From assembly GCA_034096865.1 (NCBI GenBank), contig JAWQFJ010002855.1, forward strand, positions 51,001 through 115,000: 64,000 nucleotides of DNA. The letters run 5' to 3'. Shown here one piece after another: positions 3,217 to 58,046 of this stretch (the first letter of the stretch is position 1; every line of letters begins with the position of its first letter). This DNA is from Theodoxus fluviatilis. Lineage: Eukaryota > Mollusca > Gastropoda > Cycloneritida > Neritidae. Both the position numbers and the translations under genes were made by a program. The notes under the pieces were generated by a model. It was not told the DNA's origin and did not search any database. It saw only the letters and a program-made list of their open reading frames with translations.

Positions 3217-16747
<13,531 letters not shown>

Positions 16748-17277: not shown

Positions 17278-33880
<16,603 letters not shown>

Positions 33881-39049: not shown

Positions 39050-39155
39050 GAGTTCAAGAGAAGTAAATGCCCCACCCAAATCCTGTACAATTCGTAGGTG
39101 AAGAATTGGGGAACTTATGGCTTGACTTAATGGCTTGTCTTGCCCTTACTCTAAC
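39050..39155 (+). mobile_element. Left half of a dispersed repeat split by the palindromic element
   Basis: Shares GTGAAGAATTGGGGAAC and GCCCTTACTCTAAC with the dispersed family. The right half (AGCTCATG...AAAGGCTGATAGGC) resumes at 42379-42440 after the insertion. Confidence 0.65.
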
Positions 39156-39690
39156 CAAAGACCGTCTACAATAAGATGGTTCATCCGGCACTCGGCCTAT
39201 ATAAAACATGATGACGGCGCCGACCGTGGCGCCCCAAGCGGAAACGGTGTCCCTCGAGTCCAGGAAGACAACTTCCACATACCGCGTCAGCATAACAATT
39301 TACAGTGGATCGTGGAATCCTCTTATTGTGAACTTCAATTGAGGGACAGGAAAAAATGTTCACACTAAGCGGAATGTCACATTAAGAGGGTTGATTTCAG
39401 TCATACGATGAACTGAAGGGAAATTAAAAGGTTGTGGCTATTTCAGACACTGACTATACTCTATAGAGCGAGCGCACTGCTTAATATTACATTACTCGTT
39501 CGTCGTACCTCGAGCTTTTTCTGAACTCATCTTGAACAATTTTTATGCGAGATTTTAAATCAGACAAACATGAAAACCTTACTCCAACTAACTTTCAAAG
39601 GCAAGGAGGTGACCATTGCAGTGCGAATAACTGTGTTAACTCGCGCTATGCCTGTCCACAGAAGTCGTAGTCGTGATTAGCCGGTCAAAA

Positions 39691-39815
39691 ATGTCGACCA
39701 CGAAGAAGAAATCAAGGCAAGGAGGTGTCCATTGCAGTGCGATTAACTGTGTTAACTCGCGCTATGCCTGTCCACAGAAGTCGTTTTTTAGTTTTCCGTG
39801 GAAAAATAAAGAGAG
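39691..39815 (+). pseudogene. THAP-domain first exon, left arm
   Basis: ATG at 39691 (context CAAAAATGT) reads MSTTKKKSRQGGVHCSAINC then VNSRYACPQKSFFSFPWKNKER, with donor AG|GTAAGTAAT after 39815. HCSAINC and FFSFP match the start of a C2CH THAP domain; the later Trp, Cys and His ligands would be on a missing second exon. A partial 70-bp duplicate of this segment lies just upstream at 39598-39668. Confidence 0.7.
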
Positions 39816-41730
39816 GTAAGTAATGATTATATAAATGTGTTTTGAGCTAAGCGCAATAAAATACAGAACTTGAAGTGTAATCTAAATCTGCTGAACTGGT
39901 TGAGGAAGCTTGTGGCTTTTGCTTTTGTAGGTGTGCCGATATTTGTTTTCGAAAATCTGCTGATTTAGTCACGTCAGCACCTCAGCAAATCAGCAGTCTT
40001 GATAATGAATGATTCACGTTACATGATAAATATCGCCTTGAGGCTTGATCACAATTGAGTGATTCTGAATCAGAGTTGAAGAGTTTTGGCAACTCTTGCC
40101 TTGGTCATCTCTTGAAAAAATATTTGTTCATACGCTGATGTTGTAATGCATGAAAACAGAATTCATTCAGTGTGAGTGTAACTAGCATTTTCCTTTATCT
40201 TGATAGGATTTTTTTTCAGCTCGTGGTTGGGTTTTTTTCCATTGTGCTTATTGGTTGTTGATGGGGGGAACTTCAATTACTTCAACAGAAACTAAATTCC
40301 AGTAAACTGTTCAACAAATGCACTTTTGCTGATTTATTCTGGTTCATAACACATCCAAAATAAATTCTATGGCCAAGAACAATCCACAAACAGACTTGAA
40401 AGGAATACTTACATACAAAATCTTCCAATTAATATTATATTACATACAAGAATACTTAAGTTAATGATTTTCTTATCATGAAAGCAAGGCAAATCAAGTC
40501 AGCATCTTCATAACTGGCAAGTAAATGGCTCACATGATACAGTTGCTCCATACATAAAAGAAGACTATTAGTTCTTTGCACAATCTTTCTATAAATGCCT
40601 TAGCTTAATGCTATGAGAATTTGTGATTCTTAACTTCAAGTTATACAGAGCTTTGAAATATCACAGTGACACACACATGGGCAGATCATGCCCTGCTATT
40701 GAATATAAATGAGTGTTTTTGAAGTTGCTGAAGTTTGAAAAAAAAGGTGAAAGCACTGATGATTTGTTTTTATTAATGACATTAATGTACTTGGGTAACT
40801 TCTAGTCTGTATTATTTTCTTCTCCGGATTGCATAGTTCACAGCAATTTCCTCAATCTTTGTTTCATGATCATGGTAATGGAAATTTTTTTAATGATCGG
40901 TCAGTGATTACCTACACCACCAGACATGCAGAGGGCATTAAGCTAAGGCATTTATAGAAAGATTGTGCAAAGAACTAATAGTCTTCTTTTATGTATGGAG
41001 CAACTGTATCATGTGAGCCATTTACTTGCCAGTTATGAAGATGCTGACTTGATTTGCCTTGCTTTCATGATAAGAAAATCATTAACTTAAGTATTCTTGT
41101 ATGTAATATAATATTAATTGGAAGATTTTGTATGTAAGTATTCCTTTCAAGTCTGTTTGTGGATTGTTCTTGGCCATAGAATTTATTTTGGATGTGTTAT
41201 GAACCAGAATAAATCAGCAAAAGTGCATTTGTTGAACAGTTTACTGGAATTTAGTTTCTGTTGAAGTAATTGAAGTTCCCCCCATCAACAACCAATAAGC
41301 ACAATGGAAAAAAACCCAACCACGAGCTGAAAAAAAATCCTATCAAGATAAAGGAAAATGCTAGTTACACTCACACTGAATGAATTCTATTTTCATGCAT
41401 TACAACATCAGCATATGAACAAATATTTTTTCAAGAGATGACCAAGGCAAGAGTTGCCAAAACTCTTCAACTCTGATTCAGAATCACTCAATTGTGATCA
41501 AGCCTCAAGGCGATATTTATCATGTAACGTGAATCATTCATTATCAAGACTGCTGATTTGCTGAGGTGCTGACGTGACTAAATCAGCAGATTTTCGAAAA
41601 CAAATATCGGCACACCTACAAAAGCAAAAGCCACAAGCTTCCTCAACCAGTTCAGCAGATTTAGATTACACTTCAAGTTCTGTATTTTATTGCGCTTAGC
41701 TCAAAACACATTTATATAATCATTACTTAC

Positions 41731-41855
41731 CTCTCTTTATTTTTCCACGGAAAACTAAAAAACGACTTCTGTGGACAGGCATAGCGCGAGTTAACACAGT
41801 TAATCGCACTGCAATGGACACCTCCTTGCCTTGATTTCTTCTTCGTGGTCGACAT
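41731..41855 (-). pseudogene. THAP-domain first exon, right arm
   Basis: Mirror image of the left-arm exon: start and donor coordinates of the pair sum to the same value (81546), so no net insertion or deletion separates them. The predicted peptide is the same. Reads inward toward the loop. Confidence 0.7.
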
Positions 41856-42439
41856 TTTTGACCGGCTAATCACGACTACGACTTCTGTGGACAGGCATAG
41901 CGCGAGTTAACACAGTTATTCGCACTGCAATGGTCACCTCCTTGCCTTTGAAAGTTAGTTGGAGTAAGGGTTTCATGTTTGTCTGATTTAAAATCTCGCA
42001 TAAAAATTGTTCAAGATGAGTTCAGAAAAAGCTCGAGGTACGACGAACGAGTAATGTAATATTAAGCAGTGCGCTCGCTCTATAGAGTATAGTCAGTGTC
42101 TGAAATAGCCACAACCTTTTAATTTCCCTTCAGTTCATCGTATGACTGAAATCAACCCTCTTAATGTGACATTCCGCTTAGTGTGAACATTTTTTCCTGT
42201 CCCTCAATTGAAGTTCACAATAAGAGGATTCCACGATCCACTGTAAATTGTTATGCTGACGCGGTATGTGGAAGTTGTCTTCCTTGACTCGAGCGTCACC
42301 GTTTCCGCTTGGTGGCGCGCGTGACCCTAATTTCGCCGGAAGTGACCGGATGAACCATCTTATTGTAGACGGTCTTTGCTCTAACTAGCTCATGTGAAAA
42401 ACCCCACAAAGGCTGATAGGCAAAAAAACTCCATCTTGC

Positions 42440-42874
42440 ACAGGATATGCAAACTGTTGAACCTTTTCAATACTTTTTTCGCAAAAGCCAATGAACATCT
42501 ATGACATGTTTTTGTTGGTGGAAAACTCCATTGCCTGTAATCCCCTCTGTGGAAAAGCAGTCAAATTTGCTTACTGTCGCTGCATACATAAGAATACATT
42601 CAGCATGCCCTGATATTTACCCTGGAAAAACTCCTGACAACTAAATCAAACAACACAACCTTCTGACTTAAGTGCATTTAATGACTTAAAAACAGATCAA
42701 TTTTATTTGTAACACTGGAATGAGGATTAACTCCAAACAATGCATTCTGCACTGGGAAACGTAAAAGAAAAATGCTTCATCCACTCTGCAGTTATTGAAT
42801 TCCATGTACACACATGCAAGCATGCACGCACACAGATCTTCATCCTCTCTCACTGCCATGAATGTCACAAATAC
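42440..42874. other. No recognisable feature
   Basis: AT-rich spacer between the split dispersed repeat and the telomere-like palindrome; only short ORFs. Confidence 0.4.
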
Positions 42875-43034
42875 AGGACGTTTCGCACCCTAGATGTTTC
42901 GTACCCTGGCCGCAACTTACCCTGGTCGTTGTGTACCTCATTTAGTTGATACCCTAACCCTAACCCCTAACCCTAAGTCGTTTCGTACCCTAATCGACTA
43001 GGTACGAAACATCCAGGGTACGAAACGACCTGCA
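42875..43034. mobile_element. Palindromic MITE-like block with telomere-like core
   Basis: Arms are repeats of GTTTCGTACCCT: the left arm starts CAGGACGTTTCGCACCCT, and the right arm ends in the imperfect reverse complement AGGGTACGAAACGACCTG. The core is CCCTAACCCTAACCCCTAAC CCTAA. No target duplication could be assigned. Confidence 0.65.
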
Positions 43035-43789: not shown

Positions 43790-44879
43790 ATGCCGAGGAA
43801 AGGAAAACTAGTTAGAAGCAGGCAGAGAAGCTGCCAGGGCTGCAAAACGGCAGGATCTACCTCCTGCACCGATGTCAACGGATTCTCCGCGGCACGATCG
43901 ATCGGTTATTTCGACTCCTGCACCGATGTCAACTGATTCTCCACGGCACGAGCAATCAGTTATTTCACCTCCTGCACCGATGTCAACAACAGATTCTCCA
44001 GTCCCATCCACTTCGTCGACTGATTGTGCAACTCAAGAACCGTTTCCATCCACTTCCCAAGCTGGAATTAGTGAATCAACTTCGGTTTCTGCATCTCGGA
44101 AGAAATTGGACATAGCAGCAAGCAGAAGTGCAGACACTGCCTGTGGAGATGCTCAGTCTCAGAAGTGGCTGATTTCCCACGTGGATCAGTTGACGAAACT
44201 GCTGGCACAAGTTCCTTGCCCAGAATGTTTTGAAAATGAACTGGAAGTAGGCATCTGTGAAGGTGGAAATCAAGGATTTTCCACAAAATTGGAGCTCCTG
44301 TGTCACAAATGCGGCTTCAGAGCCGATGAACTGAGTTCTCCAAGAGTGGGAGGGTCCACAAAGAAGAACGTGGCATTTGAAGTCAACAGACTGATGACTC
44401 TGTTTAGTCATGAGGTTGGGACAGGCCATCGGGTTCTAGAGAAATTCAGCACCATCTTCGGATTGCCAGGAATGCACAAGAAGACCTTCCAGCGCCACGA
44501 CCGGCTACTGACAGGTAAGAAAAACAATCATCTTGCTCAATTAAATTCCTTACATTGATCTGTGTATAATTATTGGTATTTTGTCGCGTTCTGACATGAT
44601 TCTAAATCCATGAATACTGCTTCCTATGAATTGATTATTGCAGTCATCTAAGCTTTGTTTTCAGTTAGTATTTATGAATATGATCATATATTTAGTCCAT
44701 GTCTTGCAATTTGCAGAAGTTGAAGTTCAGGAGGGTGCAGAGGTCCTGGAGCGTGCTGCTGCTGCTGTCAGAGAGGCCTACTCAGCAACTGATGCAGACC
44801 TTCAGGAGAGCCTTGGTGGAGGAGAGATTCCCATCATAGACATTAGTGTATCTTATGATGGGACCTGGCACAAAAGAGT
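43790..44879 (+). pseudogene. Transposase-like fragment, two exons, frameshifted
   Basis: Exon 1 starts ATG CCG AGG AAA GGA AAA (43790), but continues in frame with the main reading only after a one-base shift near 43818 (then REAARAAKRQDLPPAP-like). The main part, 43872-44514, has a Ser/Thr/Pro-rich stretch with two near-identical STDSPRH repeats, a CPEC...CHKC zinc-like pair (about residues 115-150), and FGLPGMHKKTFQRHDRLLT before donor ACAG|GTAAG. Exon 2 (44717 to about 44879) reads EVEVQEGAEVLERAAAAVRE to IDISVSYDGTWHKR. DGTW is the start of the catalytic part. Everything after is missing. Confidence 0.68.
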
Positions 44880-46262: not shown

Positions 46263-49200
46263 TGAAGCATTCTCAGTGCTCCAGGACCATTGTCACTTGG
46301 CACCTGTAAGACAAACAGGATCCTGTCATGGTGAGATTATGCCTCCCCTACCCCGCCTTCATTGGCTCCCATTGCACCGCCACATCCAACACAAGATCCT
46401 TGATATTGTCTGCTAAACAACATCCATCCATCCATCTGCTAAGGCCTAAAAAAAAGTATATATACATACACACACACAAAATCATAAATAATTCATCAAC
46501 ATCTAACTTGACACAAAATGAAAAAGTGATGCAATAAAAACACCAAAATAATTATGTCTAAAATCATCTGTACTGTAGCATCTTCACTGGAAAAATTCAT
46601 GCTACCGCAACCCCACACAAAAAATTCACACTGCCCCAACCCCACAGGAAAAATCCACACTGCCCCAACCTCACAGGAAAAATCCACACTTCCCAACCCC
46701 TCAGGAAAAAAGCACACTGCCTCAACCCCACAGGAAAAAACCACACTGCCCCAACCCCACAGAAAAAATCCACAGTGCCCCTACCATATGGCCTGCATCC
46801 AGGACCCAGTAGAAACAGAAGTTCTTGAAGCACTTGCGGAAGTAGACGGGGCTTGCATTCACCTCCACCTTCTGTCTGGCAGCCGTGGTGAAGCCTCCTT
46901 CCAGGGACTTCAAGGCATACACCCAGGCCTCAGTGCCTGAAAGTTTAAATCTACGTTAGATACCACTTCAAATCTCGTTGGACATTTCAATAGCAGTTCT
47001 GCTAGTCCAGATACATTTCTCTGTGAGAAACGGTAAAGAGCACAGCAATTCACAACTGCAGATGTCTCATTACTGATGTGATACTATTGGAAACAACATG
47101 CCTATCACACCTCCCCACAGAATCTTTTTCCCTTTTCACCCAACCTATCCGCCTATCACACCTCCCCACAGAATCTTTTTCCCTTTTCACCCAACCTATC
47201 CGCCTATCACACCTCCCCACAGAATCTTTTTCCCTTTTCACCCAACCTATCCGCCTATCACACCTCCCCACAGAATCTTTTTCCCTTTTCACCCAACCTA
47301 TCCGCCTATCACACCTCCCCACAGAATCTTTTTCCCTTTTCACCCAACCTATCCGCCTATCACACCTCCCCACAGAATCTTTTTCCCTTTTCACCCAACC
47401 TATCCGCCTATCACACCTCCCCACAGAATCTTTTTCCCTTTTCACCCAACCTATCCGCCTATCACACCTCCCCACAGAATCTTTTTCCCTTTTCACCCAA
47501 CCTATCTGCCTATCGCACCTCCCCACAGAATCTTTTTCCCTTTTCACCCAACCTATCCGCCTATCACACCTCCCCACAGAATCTTTTTCCCTTTTCACCC
47601 AACCTATCCGCCTATCACACCTCCCCACAGAATCTTTTTCCCTTTTCACCCAACCTATCTGCCTATCGCACCTCCCCACAGAATCTTTTTCCCTTTTCAC
47701 CCAACCTATCCGCCTATCACACCTCCCCACAGAATCTTTTTCCCTTTTCACCCAACCTATCCTGAGAGTAAAGAAGGCAAGTTTTAACGTGCAGAGCAGA
47801 AGTCCTGCAAGGGACAGACAGGGGGGGGGGGAATGTGGGATCACAGGCAGGGGACTGAACCCACAACCTTTCCACTAGTGCCCAAAATGTTCTACCGGCT
47901 GAGCTGCCATGGTCCATGTCGTTTTCTCCTGCCTACACTGCCCTGTATCAGCAGCTGCTGTTTGGGTCTGACATACCCACCTTCCCACAGAAGTGAATAT
48001 GATTGAGACACAGCACAACAGATTTTCATCATCAGATAATTATATCAAATGCCTCACTTTCCAGATGAACAATTCTAAACAATCAAGTTTTAGGTGAGTC
48101 TGAGTAGCTGTGCCTGCCTGCTTTCTAACAGTTTTTCTACTTTGTGGAAATGTGACTGAACATGCAATGAAGAAAAACAAGGAAAGGAGTTGATGATAAT
48201 TGTCACTATTGCTTGGATGGGTGGGAGTGTCACGATGAGTCAAACATTCAATGTGCAATTCCTCTGCAATTCTGGACTTGTATATCAGTGGACTTGTGTC
48301 AGCATGCCATTTCATCAATGAACATTCGGTTAGAGCTTTCAATAGACTTATGAGACAGATCCTCAAACAAGAACTGGTTATAACTCTTAAACATTTATGA
48401 ATTAAGGCTGACCTATTCTTTAGTATTCTTCTCGTGCATGCTTGATCCATGCATGAAGATTTCATGTTATGCACTTATTTGATTAAATCTATTAATTGAA
48501 TTCTCAAGACCTCTTCTGGTTTTGAGAGAAAGAGATAGCGCTAATGATAGGCAGTGACTGTTATGTGTGCAAGTCAGGCCTCATCATATGACTGATTAAT
48601 CTACATACCCCCAGATGTAGAGGAAGACTTGTAGCATATGTAGGTCCGTAATTTGTACAGAAACAAATCTGGACTAGTCTTACCTAGGACATCAACGATG
48701 AGGTCCAACTGTCCACTGTAGACCACCACCTGAAGCGATGTCTCCTGAATCAGGCTGTCCACTGCAATGACAACCCACCCCACCAGTCACATCTCCTGGG
48801 CAGGATCGGGGGAAAAAATTAACTGCAGGTTCTGTGACTCAGACAGAATTGGCAAGAAACCTCAAACAGAGCAAGACAACAGAAATGTCTTCACTGGATT
48901 TTTCTAAAAGCCTCAGCCTTGGGAGGGAAAAAACCCCTAACCCTACTTGTTTTTCCCCTGACCACATGAACGAATTAAATGCTGGTTTGTTTAAAATAGC
49001 AGAAAAGGCAAATTTAAATATCTTACTTTCTCATTTCAGATTGAAGAAGTTTATTTCTATGTAATAAATCTAAGCATTCAACTTGAAGTGATTTTGTGAT
49101 CATCTTTAAATAATCCCGACTCCCAAAACATCAATTTGGGGCACATTTATGTAACTCTGAGATGAAATTGACAAATCTATGACTGACAGCTAGTAATAAT

Positions 49201-52200: not shown

Positions 52201-55200
52201 GTTGTTGTTGTTGTTGTTGTTGCGTACCTGGGCTAAACACTCCCAGGATCACCCAAGTGGGTGAGATGATTGCGTATGTGACTGTTTTTGAACACCCCGC
52301 CATATAGGCAGCCACACTCCGTCTTCAGGGGATTTGATCTCTGTCTCCAGAGAATGCCAGTTGTTATGTTAGGAGCTTACCACGGCTGAAGATAATCCCC
52401 ACATAACAGTACAACATAACAACATTTTGCTGTAACCTTGGTTTTTGGCTGGAGTCAACAAATAACAACAGCCTTTGCCCAAGGCATGGTCCTGTAAGTC
52501 ATTCACGTGCCATTCCCCAGTCCTGTAAGGATTCTGCAATTTGTATAAAAAATCAGTCAAGTAACAGCCACGTGGGGTGGGCGGCTAGGGGTGGTACAGG
52601 ATTGAGCAAGGTGGGCAGTAATACTAATAGGTGGTACAGGTTTGAGCAGGGTGGGCAGTAATAGGTGGTACAGGATTGAGCAGGATGGGCAGTAATAGGT
52701 GGTACAGGATTGAGCAGGGTGGGCAGTAATGGGTGGTACAGGATTGAGCAGGGTGGGCAGTAATAGGTGGTACAGGTTTGAGCAGGGTGGGCAGTAATGG
52801 GTGGTACAGGATTGAGCAGGATGGGCAGTAATAGGTGGTACAGGATTGAGCAGGGTGGGCAGTAATAGATACAGGGTGGGCAGTAATGGGTGGTACAGGA
52901 TTGAGCAGGGTGGGCAGTAATACTAATAGGTGGTACAGGATTGAGCAGGGTGGGCAGTAATGGGTGGTACAGGTTTGAGCAGGGTGGGCAGTAATAGGTG
53001 GTACAGGATTGAGCAGGGTGGGCAGTAATAGGTGATACAGGGTGGGCAGTAATGGGTGGTACAGGATTGAGCAGGGTGGGCAGTAATAGGTGATACAGGT
53101 TTGAGCAGGGTGGGCAGTAATAGGTGGTACAGGATTGAGCAGGGTGGGCAGTAATGGGTGGTACAGGATTGAGCAGGGTGGGCAGTAATAGGTGGTGCAG
53201 GTTTGAGCAGGGTGGGCAGTAATAGATGGTACAGGATTGAGCAGGGTGGGCAGTAATAGGTGATACAGGTTTGAGCAGGGTGGGCAGTAATATGTGGTAC
53301 AGGATTGAGCAGGGTGGGCAGTAATAGGTGGTACAGGATTGAGCAGGGTGGGCAGTAATAGGTGGTACAGGATTGAGCAGGGTGGGCAGTAATAGGTGGT
53401 ACAGGATTGAGCAAGGTGGGCAGTAATAGGTGGTACAGGATTGAGCAGGGTGGGCAGTAGTAGGTGGTACAGGATTGAGCAGGGTGGGCAGTAATAGGTG
53501 GTACAGGATTGAGCAGGGTGGGCAGTAATAGGTGGTACAGGATTGAGCAGGGTGGGCAGTAATAGGTGGTACAGGATTGAGCAGGATGGGCAGTAATAGG
53601 TGGTACAGGATTGAGCAGGGTGGGCAGTAATGGGTGGTACAGGATTTTAAGAGTTAATGTCATTTGTGTTCTTGAGAATTTATTAAAAGAATCTAAGATT
53701 TGGCACACTTTTGTTTGTTTACATGTTCCAATTAGTTAAAAGAATTTTCTTTGGGATATAAACACAATATAAAAAGCAATGTATTAGACAAAGACTGTAT
53801 GGTGATCTGCAGGAAGTTGTCAAGGCTGCACAGTAGAGAATGAACGCCGGCATGCAACTTTGCATGCAAATCAGTCTGGGTCTGTCGTCACCCTCTGCAC
53901 TGACAAGCATCCATAGACAGATCACCCAACCTGATGCCAATCACCACAACAACACAGCAGAGTCCAAGAGTGCCCACTGCCCTTACTGTGCTGTAGAGGA
54001 ATGGTGCCCAGGAATTGGTGGAGTCCACCGGAGAGATCCAGGAATCACCCATGGCCAGCCCCTTGAAGTTGCACTCCACCGACCCCGACTTGATTGCCTG
54101 TCATTACAGTGCAAACAGACATCAGGCTGCAATCAGTGCCGTTTTCAACAAAACAACAACAACAACAACACAAAGATTGTGCCTCCTCTGCAGTGATATA
54201 ATAGGTTCGTTACTGTCATAAAATGAAATCACAACGTAGATTGTTGTCAGTCAAAACCACCTAACACCAGATGGGTAGGACAAATTGAGATTCATGGCCA
54301 ACCTGCCTGACTTTCACACCAAAAGCACCTTTTACTCCAGAAGATTTACACTGCAACTCGGCTGTGTCTTATTGCACATCTACCAATAAAAACCCACCGA
54401 GTTTTTGGCCAGTTTTCACAAAGAGTGTTTCAAAAAGGGATTAAACATGTCCACTATATAACCAAGTGTTCCCAAGGGTACAGTTCAAAATACCAAACAC
54501 ACAGACTGTGGCAAAAGACTCAAAAGCAAAGAAGTTGATGAGATAACTAGTAAATAACCAAAAATGAAAGTCACCTTATACAGGACTTGGCTAAATGCAG
54601 CGGTCATTTTCCCTCCGTAAGACTCAGAGAAAATGTAAAATGGTACATTCTGCAAATGAAACAAACTAAATTAAATTTTTTTAAGAGTGAAAGAAATAAC
54701 ATTCATTGGGAGTAAATGTGAGACATCTTATAAAACCAGTGAGTTCTAGTAACCTGTTACCCAAAGGTATGAAGATACTCTAACTTCTGCAGATTGATTC
54801 TACAATGCAAGACTCTCATGGTCAGAGAAATTTCAACACAATAAGAAACACTTTTGATGCTCATAAAGCATGATAGAAAAGAAAGCTGGAACATTTTCAT
54901 CATCAAGAGTATTCCTAATAGCCATCAAAATTCCTATTTCACAAAAATGTTTTAGATTGAAAGGTTGTGGCTGTATATGTATATTGTACTTCTTTCAAAA
55001 TAATAAATATTCAAGCTTCAACTTTTACAGTTACAAGTGCCCTACTACCCACCTTGAACTCGGGATTTTTGTCCAAGAAGGCGCTGAAGAGAGTCAGGAG
55101 GTCGGCAGCAATGCCAGAGACGTTGGTGGTCAGTTTGCTTCGGTCGTCCACGTAGCTGAAGCCTGTCCCCACTGGGTTGTCCACAAACAGCAGACTGGCA

Positions 55201-58046
55201 ACACTCAGCTGTACACAGCACACATGCAAACGTACAACATCAAGAACAGTGTCTGACTGGAATGCACATGAAAACACACACACACACACTATCACACCAC
55301 ACATACATACACACACACACACACACAGAGACACACACAGACACGTACACACACAGACACAGATAGACACACACACACAGAGACAGACACACACACAGAG
55401 ACAGACACACACACACACACACACACACATACACAGAGACACATACACTATAATACACACACTATCACACCACACACACCCACAGGCCAAACAAACAAAA
55501 ATTGTGGTTACTGTAAAATGCCTCCCCCCCCCCCACTTACACACACACACACAGACACAGACACACACACAAAGGCCAAACAAACAAAAATTGTGGTTAC
55601 TGTAAAATGGCCACACACACACAAAAATAGAGCCAGTAAGTCGGCCTGAACTTTTTTTTAATTCAAATTTTTGTTTCAGAAAATCTCTATGTCAAATTTA
55701 ACGTAAACCATGTTTTCTCCTTTGCTGAAAAAGCTTTAAAAATGTAAATAGGGGATTCACTGAGTGCTCGTAGGGCAGGGGAAATGGGAAAGCATGCAGT
55801 TTATTGTATACCATCAAATTTTTCTTTCTTCTTTTTTTTTGCAATCAAAAGAAGAGTTTAGGGTCGGAAGGAAAAAATTTTGTTGGTAGAGTTACCGTAA
55901 CCACAACCTTATTTTTAGTCTTTTTTGCCTAACTACAAACACACATGCAACATATGTTACTGACTTTTAAATTCTTATCTGGCTATTAAGATAAATGATT
56001 ATTTTTACTGTCTGATTTTAGAACTAAGTTCTTGACTCTGTCATGAAACGAGGACACACTTCCTCATGTACGTAATCATGCGGTGGACAATTTTCCTTAT
56101 TGGAAAAATGGTTTCAAAAGGTTGTTCACTACATATCTAAATTTAAGTGCAAATAAAATCTCTCAAGGTCAAATAATGCAGGAAAGACACGTAAAACAAG
56201 GGCATGTTTAAGTGCTTGGTGACCTCAGGTCACCATATTTCTTCCTCTGACTTTCGACCAAAAGAAAATCAGCTTGAGGTAGGACACATTTTGCTTTTGT
56301 CATTGAGACACATACACAGTGACTTCACTGAATGCATCACTCTTTCCCATGATAAACTATGTGTTTTGTCACACTCTTTGCCCTCTGAATACTGTTTCTG
56401 TGATCACACTGTAGCGTGTAATACATGGCTCAGTTGCAAAAACAGGAGGTTCGGCACCTCTGAGAGAGCAGATAAAGCAAATCCATGTCACATCCATCGT
56501 TACTGAGAGATGAGAAGCAGGAGTCACTACCGGCAGGAATGGGTTAACTGTCTGAAAGAAAATTGGCTGATCACTTACCCAAGTGGTGTTCCTTGGCTTC
56601 AGGTTCACATCCAGAGGTCCGATCTCCTCAAAGTTTCCAAAACCAGTTGAAGAGCCTCCTGGCCCACCCTGGCAATGAAATGGTAGGCTGTCCTACATTC
56701 CACTCCACTTTGATTAACAGTGTCTGTGCTGTAGTTGAAACATCTTCACACTTTTAACAACTGAAAATATTCCTTCCTTTCAAGTGCACACAGAAGACAT
56801 CAATTGTTCAACAGAAACTTCCTGCAAATCAGACAGAATGAAATTAATCATTTGACTTCTAGAAAGAATGCCAGACTACAGAGTCCAGTCTGCTAGATTC
56901 AAGAATGAAACTGTAAAATTGTATATATGTGACCAGCCACGACAAAACCAGTGCTAAGTCCATTTTTGGACAAAATGGGGTTTTAATACTTTTGAATTCT
57001 GCATTCATTTCTGTTTGTTTTGATATAAGAATGAACAATGTGAGTTAGTTAGAATAGGAGTTACAGGCATTTCAAGTTGGGTACTGAAGCAGCGGTCATT
57101 TTGAAAAAACGGTTTCAGAAGATTTACTCTCTTCAGACATTAAACACCTCAGCAACGGTATTTCAAACTCCGTTTCCAAAAATAGCTGACCTTATTTTTC
57201 TTCGACATCCACAGAGCGGGAACGCTGAGAGAGCAGCCTTTCTAACGGTATATAACATGAAGGGGTTCTGCAAGGGTTTAGGTGTGTTTATTGCGGCTAA
57301 AATGAGGCAATTAACGCTAATTACAGGGAGCTTTTGAAACAATACATAACACAAAAGTCTTTATTTTACCATCAAAATATAATTCTTCAAAATGTTTCCC
57401 TTACTGGCATGATAGTTTGAACCATGTAGAATCTATTTTCATCAAAAAGTGAAAATCACCCAGAGTGACCCTCCCCGCCTTTTCTCAGTCGTAGCGCAAA
57501 ATAGTGCCGCGCGACTTAGCACTGGTTTTGTCGTGGCTGGTCACATATACATGTATGTACCAGTGACCACTGAACAACTACTATCAGCAAAGCTAACATG
57601 ACTTGCATTATGACTGAAGATCAAAGCAAAGATTGATCATGTCTATAATGATCAAAGCATCACCTTTATGAAATGACCGACATTTTGCAAGTGCTGACTT
57701 TTGCAGTAGATGATACATGATAGTGCAGAATACTTCATTTACTTGAACTGTAACAAAACTATTCTGCATCATTCAACAAATTATATGTTGATTTTAAAAG
57801 TGGAATGTTTGCAATTAAACAAAAATACATGCTATTACATTAAGAAATTAATGCTCATTTTGTGTACAGGTAGAACTGCTTTGGGATGCAAAAACTGAAA
57901 TGGTAGAAGAGATTGATAAATGCATTATTTTGAAAATGAAAAAAAAAATGAATGAGTAAATAAAAGGAAGAAAACTACATAAAAACTGAACAAGGGAATG
58001 CACTCAAACCCACCAACTGAATGCATGAACTGAAAACACATAGCTC

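Follow-up and report, generated by a model that had tools for sequence, protein, structure and literature searches.

A long palindrome with THAP exons in the snail Theodoxus fluviatilis is one copy of a dispersed P-superfamily family with two kinds of end

The closest known system to the palindrome described here is Galileo, a long-TIR transposon of the P superfamily found in Drosophila, with which we compared it by published description. In the excerpts available of two accounts (PMC3573991, PMC4168063), Galileo has a THAP-containing P-type transposase, mostly 7-bp duplications and long TIRs that recruit internal, even coding sequence, as seen in the '2RT' copies and in copy 147 of D. willistoni, whose TIRs take in >500 bp of ORF; chimeric copies without matching duplications are also described there. 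An extract of a footprinting study places several THAP binding sites in the Galileo TIR (PMC3688188). In the Drosophila P element, TIR and transposase site are separated by 9 bp at one end and by 21 bp at the other, and the portion consulted of a review likens this asymmetry to V(D)J recombination with its 12 and 23 bp signals (PMC7776569). Pdre2 / THAP9 of zebrafish has a P-type transposase, TIRs plus subterminal repeats and deleted copies (PMC10983969), and Mu killer of maize is an inverted duplicate of part of a transposase gene, with TIRs (PMC3440606). No description of a P element of such type in molluscs was found among the open-licence papers listed.

The palindrome, from the gastropod Theodoxus fluviatilis, is one copy of a dispersed, non-autonomous family of the P superfamily. 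Like Galileo, this family has a P transposase (in a relative), 7-bp duplications and long TIRs that have recruited internal, coding sequence. Unlike Galileo, which belongs to Drosophilidae, it lives in a gastropod, its arms hold a THAP exon 1 with its splice donor, and its left and right ends differ in sequence, with a 12-nt offset and a TATA box. Unlike ends with a 12-bp spacing difference and the same catalytic domains (in the relative) are shared with the Drosophila P element, although the latter has 31-bp TIRs, 8-bp duplications and no long arms, against 33 bp, 7 bp and long arms here. Pdre2 / THAP9 differs by its 13-bp TIRs and 8-bp duplications, and Mu killer is a plant locus of the Mutator superfamily able to silence its parent element.

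The window, i.e., the whole 64,000-nt stretch of DNA analysed, comes from contig C2831 of a 965-Mb assembly with 19668 contigs. Self-alignment located a near-perfect palindrome of about 3.2 kb at 39156..42378, where the preliminary description had put it, between two copies of CTCTAAC read in the flanks (39149..39155 and 42379..42385), the 7-bp duplication reported there. Immediately inside are two identical 33-bp TIRs (39156..39188, plus strand; 42346..42378, minus strand), followed by end-specific subterminal blocks delimited by the arm alignment, one of 45 nt at the left (39189..39233, plus), with TATATAA at 39198, and one of 33 nt at the right (42313..42345, minus). The arms found by self-alignment are 1378 nt each (39234..40611, plus; 40935..42312, minus) and enclose a loop (40612..40934) measuring 323 nt, close to the approximately 320 bp first given, and about 333 nt in many other copies. 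An inner motif, AAGCGGAA, is common to both ends; its offset is 80 at the left tip (39236..39243, plus) and 68 at the right tip (42303..42310, minus). Relative to the inner arms, the outer ends are thus shifted by 12 nt. Only 6 mismatches per 1378 nt separate the arms (99.6% identity). The earlier value of >99% stands for this length, but not for arms of 1.46 kb, for which the whole alignment of 1459 columns gives 97.9% because it takes in the poorly matching 45 nt (left) and 33 nt (right).

Each arm carries an inward-reading THAP exon 1 of 125 nt, at 39691..39815 on the plus strand (donor GTAAGT at 39816) and, as a mirror copy with its own GTAAGT donor, at 41731..41855 on the minus strand, the coordinates of the pair sharing one sum (81546) as had been observed. 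The exon start is also duplicated in tandem in each arm, as a 71-nt partial duplicate at 39598..39668 (plus), repeating 39714-39784, and at 41878..41948 (minus). AATAAA signals occur at 39805, 39855 and 40359, all ahead of the second arm. No inverted repeat was found beyond the TIRs in the flanks of the window copy. Chance is excluded as the source of the palindrome, given its length and the many dispersed copies.

Elsewhere in the window, 1.4 kb from the palindrome, there is a Mutator-like transposase frame fragment (43812-44555; PF20700, E 5e-8), and the motif GGTACGAAACGACYTG has three matches at ≤2 mismatches within 42874-43032, against 0.01 expected. A 26-bp tandem unit similar to GGTACGAAACGACYTG is present on contig C12797, outside the left end of a relative with a transposase that is described below. 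The window also holds a 1256-aa frame (3217-6987) with several C2H2 fingers in a tandemly repeated stretch, long minisatellites (558-2461, 21069-21932, 23078-23751, 27274-29409, 47100-47762, and 52590-53646), several of them open in more than one frame, and a serine carboxypeptidase exon on the minus strand (55014-55622; PF00450, E 4e-11), probably of a host gene.

The TIR, searched with ≤3 mismatches, has 615 matches in the genome (305 forward and 310 reverse), with none in either orientation for the reversed control, and the arm has at least 71 matches with the best 40 of 635 candidates scored. For the top-ranking arm matches, loci on 29 contigs were merged, with two ends visible in 20, and six two-ended copies were added: C605 for its length, C993, C871, and C2909 for their deviant look, and C453 and C819 to represent size classes. 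The 7-bp duplication is exact in 22 of these 26 two-ended copies read with flanks and agrees at 6 of 7 bases in C99, while three copies lack it (C7010, with 4 of 7 bases; C14733 and C2909, with 2 each). By end type, the same 26 copies comprise 23 with one left and one right end (LR), two with two right ends (RR) and one with two left ends (LL). The short forms, of 314 bp (C819) and 1965 bp (C453), retain an LR pair of ends and are flanked by exact duplications. No empty site of the window copy was found in the assembly.

The 4543-bp member on C605 (L054) sits in the arm of another copy with an exact 7-bp duplication. In C15739 (L040:2346-3201), about 0.86 kb of another repeat, resembling the one that adjoins copy C16664, breaks the left arm near arm position 630. 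C605, C1520, and C10927 were considered as complete elements and rejected, since reading them showed no P-transposase frame. An ORF in copy C7908, considered as an unrelated catalytic gene of the family, was also set aside; it sits at a TTAA of the arm and has the look of an inserted piggyBac remnant.

With a strict TIR pattern, 53 ends in 32 contigs were typed as 25 left and 28 right. AAGCGGAA lies at offset 80 in all 25 left ends, 23 of which also have TATATAAAA; among the right ends it lies at offset 68 in 26, at 70 in one and is absent in one. Allowing ≤2 mismatches genome-wide, the left pattern has 316 matches and the right one 367, with none in the controls. Pairs were then defined as convergent neighbours <7 kb apart among the matches listed (first 100 places per end type), the ends in this count being all exact matches within C3-C6686, with mismatched ends and contigs past C6686 left out and the remaining listed ends having no listed partner. 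There are 74 such pairs (72 LR, one LL, and one RR), which do not represent 74 independent events, as the copies share ancestry and both haplotypes may be present in the assembly. The new observation is LR pairing in 72 of the 74 counted pairs, with the inner motif offset by 12 nt between the two ends, and AAGCGGAA is a candidate transposase site.

Both RR copies read (C14733 and C2909) lack a duplication, which is the expectation for recombination products, and C7010 is an LR palindrome whose two flanking 7-mers differ, as expected after ectopic recombination between copies. The LL copy C993, on the other hand, has an exact duplication, so that the LR rule has exceptions unless one end of this copy was converted once it had been inserted.

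With its 42 aa, the lone window exon does not have the length needed for a secure domain assignment: it matched no Pfam family at E up to 10, a structure search found no THAP structure, and only when trimmed to 29 aa did it match Pfam THAP at E=0.038. Its identity as a THAP first exon, proposed from the beginning, was confirmed through a relative. Used as a protein query (150 of 1215 candidates scored), the exon has a 90% copy on contig C15265, where a PF21787 frame follows 3.4 kb downstream. This exon 1 is identical to the window exon at 118 of 125 nt, has the same donor, and is followed by an exon 2 that completes the THAP domain (exon 1 + exon 2, Pfam E=1.6e-15), the choice of exon 2 donor being provisional. 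The catalytic exon of 781 aa matches PF21787 (2.3e-35), PF21788, PF21789, and PF12017, as well as the structure of the Drosophila P transposase (6p5a, 1.7e-40).

The right-type end of C15265 has 93.9% identity over 114 nt, with its outermost 7–11 nt replaced by flank. Contig C12797 is identical to C15265 over the 443 nt compared and continues with a 60-bp minisatellite and a left-type end having 31 of 33 TIR bases, which gives an element of about 10.4 kb if both contigs represent one locus. This is a transposase-bearing, P-like relative with the same kinds of end, for which a search had been suggested, although with an eroded right tip, read over two overlapping contigs and with no target-site duplication readable; an intact source element was not seen. 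Homology to the window arms ends near arm position 940. Exon 1 lies behind the right end in this relative, which suggests that the left-hand copy in the palindrome is the recruited one.

P transposases are abundant in this genome, where the PF21787 profile has 111 matches, many of them in long open frames. At the 10 other P-transposase loci read, the THAP starts have 47–58% protein identity to the window exon. One locus (L045) has a long frame that matches the structure of the P transposase of Drosophila at 8e-39; the best named protein match of this frame is from the marine snail Batillaria attramentaria (63%, with 79% of the query covered), behind three unnamed ones. The ends are also similar, as the 3′ tip of the P-transposase element C16335, whose 5′ tip is not intact, scores 14.0 against the window TIR (shuffle mean 4.1, 1 of 2000 shuffles as high) and 14.5 against the TIR of subfamily B (0 of 2000), and the 5′ tip of C13579 scores 16.0 against the palindrome tip (shuffle mean 3.9, 0 of 2000 shuffles as high).

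The palindrome is thus very probably a foldback-type, non-autonomous DNA transposon of the P superfamily, the P-like affinity first suggested being borne out. The family has a 7-bp target-site duplication, where the superfamily has 7 or 8 bp, and unlike left and right ends as in the Drosophila P element, and its TIRs resemble those of elements in this genome that encode a P transposase (C15265/C12797, C16335, and C13579); THAP and TNP-like RNase H domains are combined in the transposase of C15265/C12797, the palindrome itself holding exon 1 only. Judging from the anatomy, a P-type transposase encoded elsewhere in the genome would cut at both 33-bp tips and the element would reinsert with a 7-bp duplication. 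The palindrome itself would have arisen by inverted-repeat extension, in which inner sequence of the right end, including transposase exon 1, was copied behind the left end, presumably by recombination or gap repair and in that direction. The last ~78 nt at the left and ~66 nt at the right would have been kept distinct, probably because transposition requires an end of each type.

An inversion made by the assembly from a fold-back read, a concern raised in the preliminary description, would be an alternative explanation, and the same assembly does contain a probable case: on C13579 (L048/L049), arms of about 2.5 kb each form a palindrome of 99.1% identity around a T/C homopolymer. That one, however, extends 177 nt past each tip, as far as the sequence was read, whereas the window palindrome ends at its TIRs inside a direct 7-bp duplication, its flanks differ and are not inverted, and similar palindromes are dispersed over many other contigs, all of which makes an artefact here practically inconceivable. 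The near-identity of the arms had been attributed to recent origin or to gene conversion between them. The former needs rewording, as the palindrome is not unique to this site and has been transposed as a unit. In 14 of 17 two-armed copies the arms differ by 0–0.45% (arm positions 110–1272), and in C10015, C6451, and C1654 by 1.3–1.8%, with the right arm, which has a rearrangement common to all three, compared over 770–777 columns only. It is rather unlikely that palindromes formed once and then spread with no later exchange between arms, as arm ends and loop common to many copies would suggest. We listed variable columns for 31 long arms, including 11 copies with both arms: subfamilies A and B differ at 12 columns (133–204), at which left and right arm agree in all 11 copies. 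Three further alleles are found in both arms of the window copy and in none of the other 29 arms listed. Both results speak against a single formation with no later exchange. Such private alleles in both arms were seen in this copy only (1 of 11), which favours a single formation of that kind and leaves arm-to-arm gene conversion with partial support. C15739, considered as an A/B chimera, was dropped, as A and B barely differ in that part. Overall, the pattern points to exchange between arms or to independent formation of palindromes. The end-specific blocks have not been homogenised, and the inner arms look homogenised while the terminal blocks stay unlike.

The preferred reading, a mobile foldback element, has also to be weighed against a role in silencing, in which a hairpin locus would be retained since read-through dsRNA would yield siRNA against P-like transposases, as proposed for Mu killer, whose layout is of the same kind in the part of PMC3440606 available. 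The 1.38-kb arms with a transposase exon 1 in each, the TATA box at the left end and the many long open P-transposase frames in the genome would suit such a locus, and 118 of 125 identical nt would be close enough for targeting C15265; nevertheless, the 47–58% protein match to the 10 other P transposases is too distant for siRNA targeting of those, and the known coding part is limited to exon 1 (125 nt). The three AATAAA signals before the second arm also speak somewhat against full read-through of a transcript from the left TATA box, and the structure is a dispersed transposon family instead of a single kept locus, so that we consider retention for silencing decidedly improbable. Hardly more probable, by analogy with the same maize locus, is that the palindromic copies act as mobile silencers: the family would time and again form new inverted copies of the transposase exon it carries, and dsRNA transcribed from these would limit the parent element. 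If true, mobile silencers would be an animal counterpart of Mu killer, itself able to transpose.

These data document a P lineage that extends its TIRs much as Galileo does, but in a gastropod, remote from Drosophila, and provide a natural count of the pairing of left and right ends, making the end asymmetry of P-type transposases testable outside flies.
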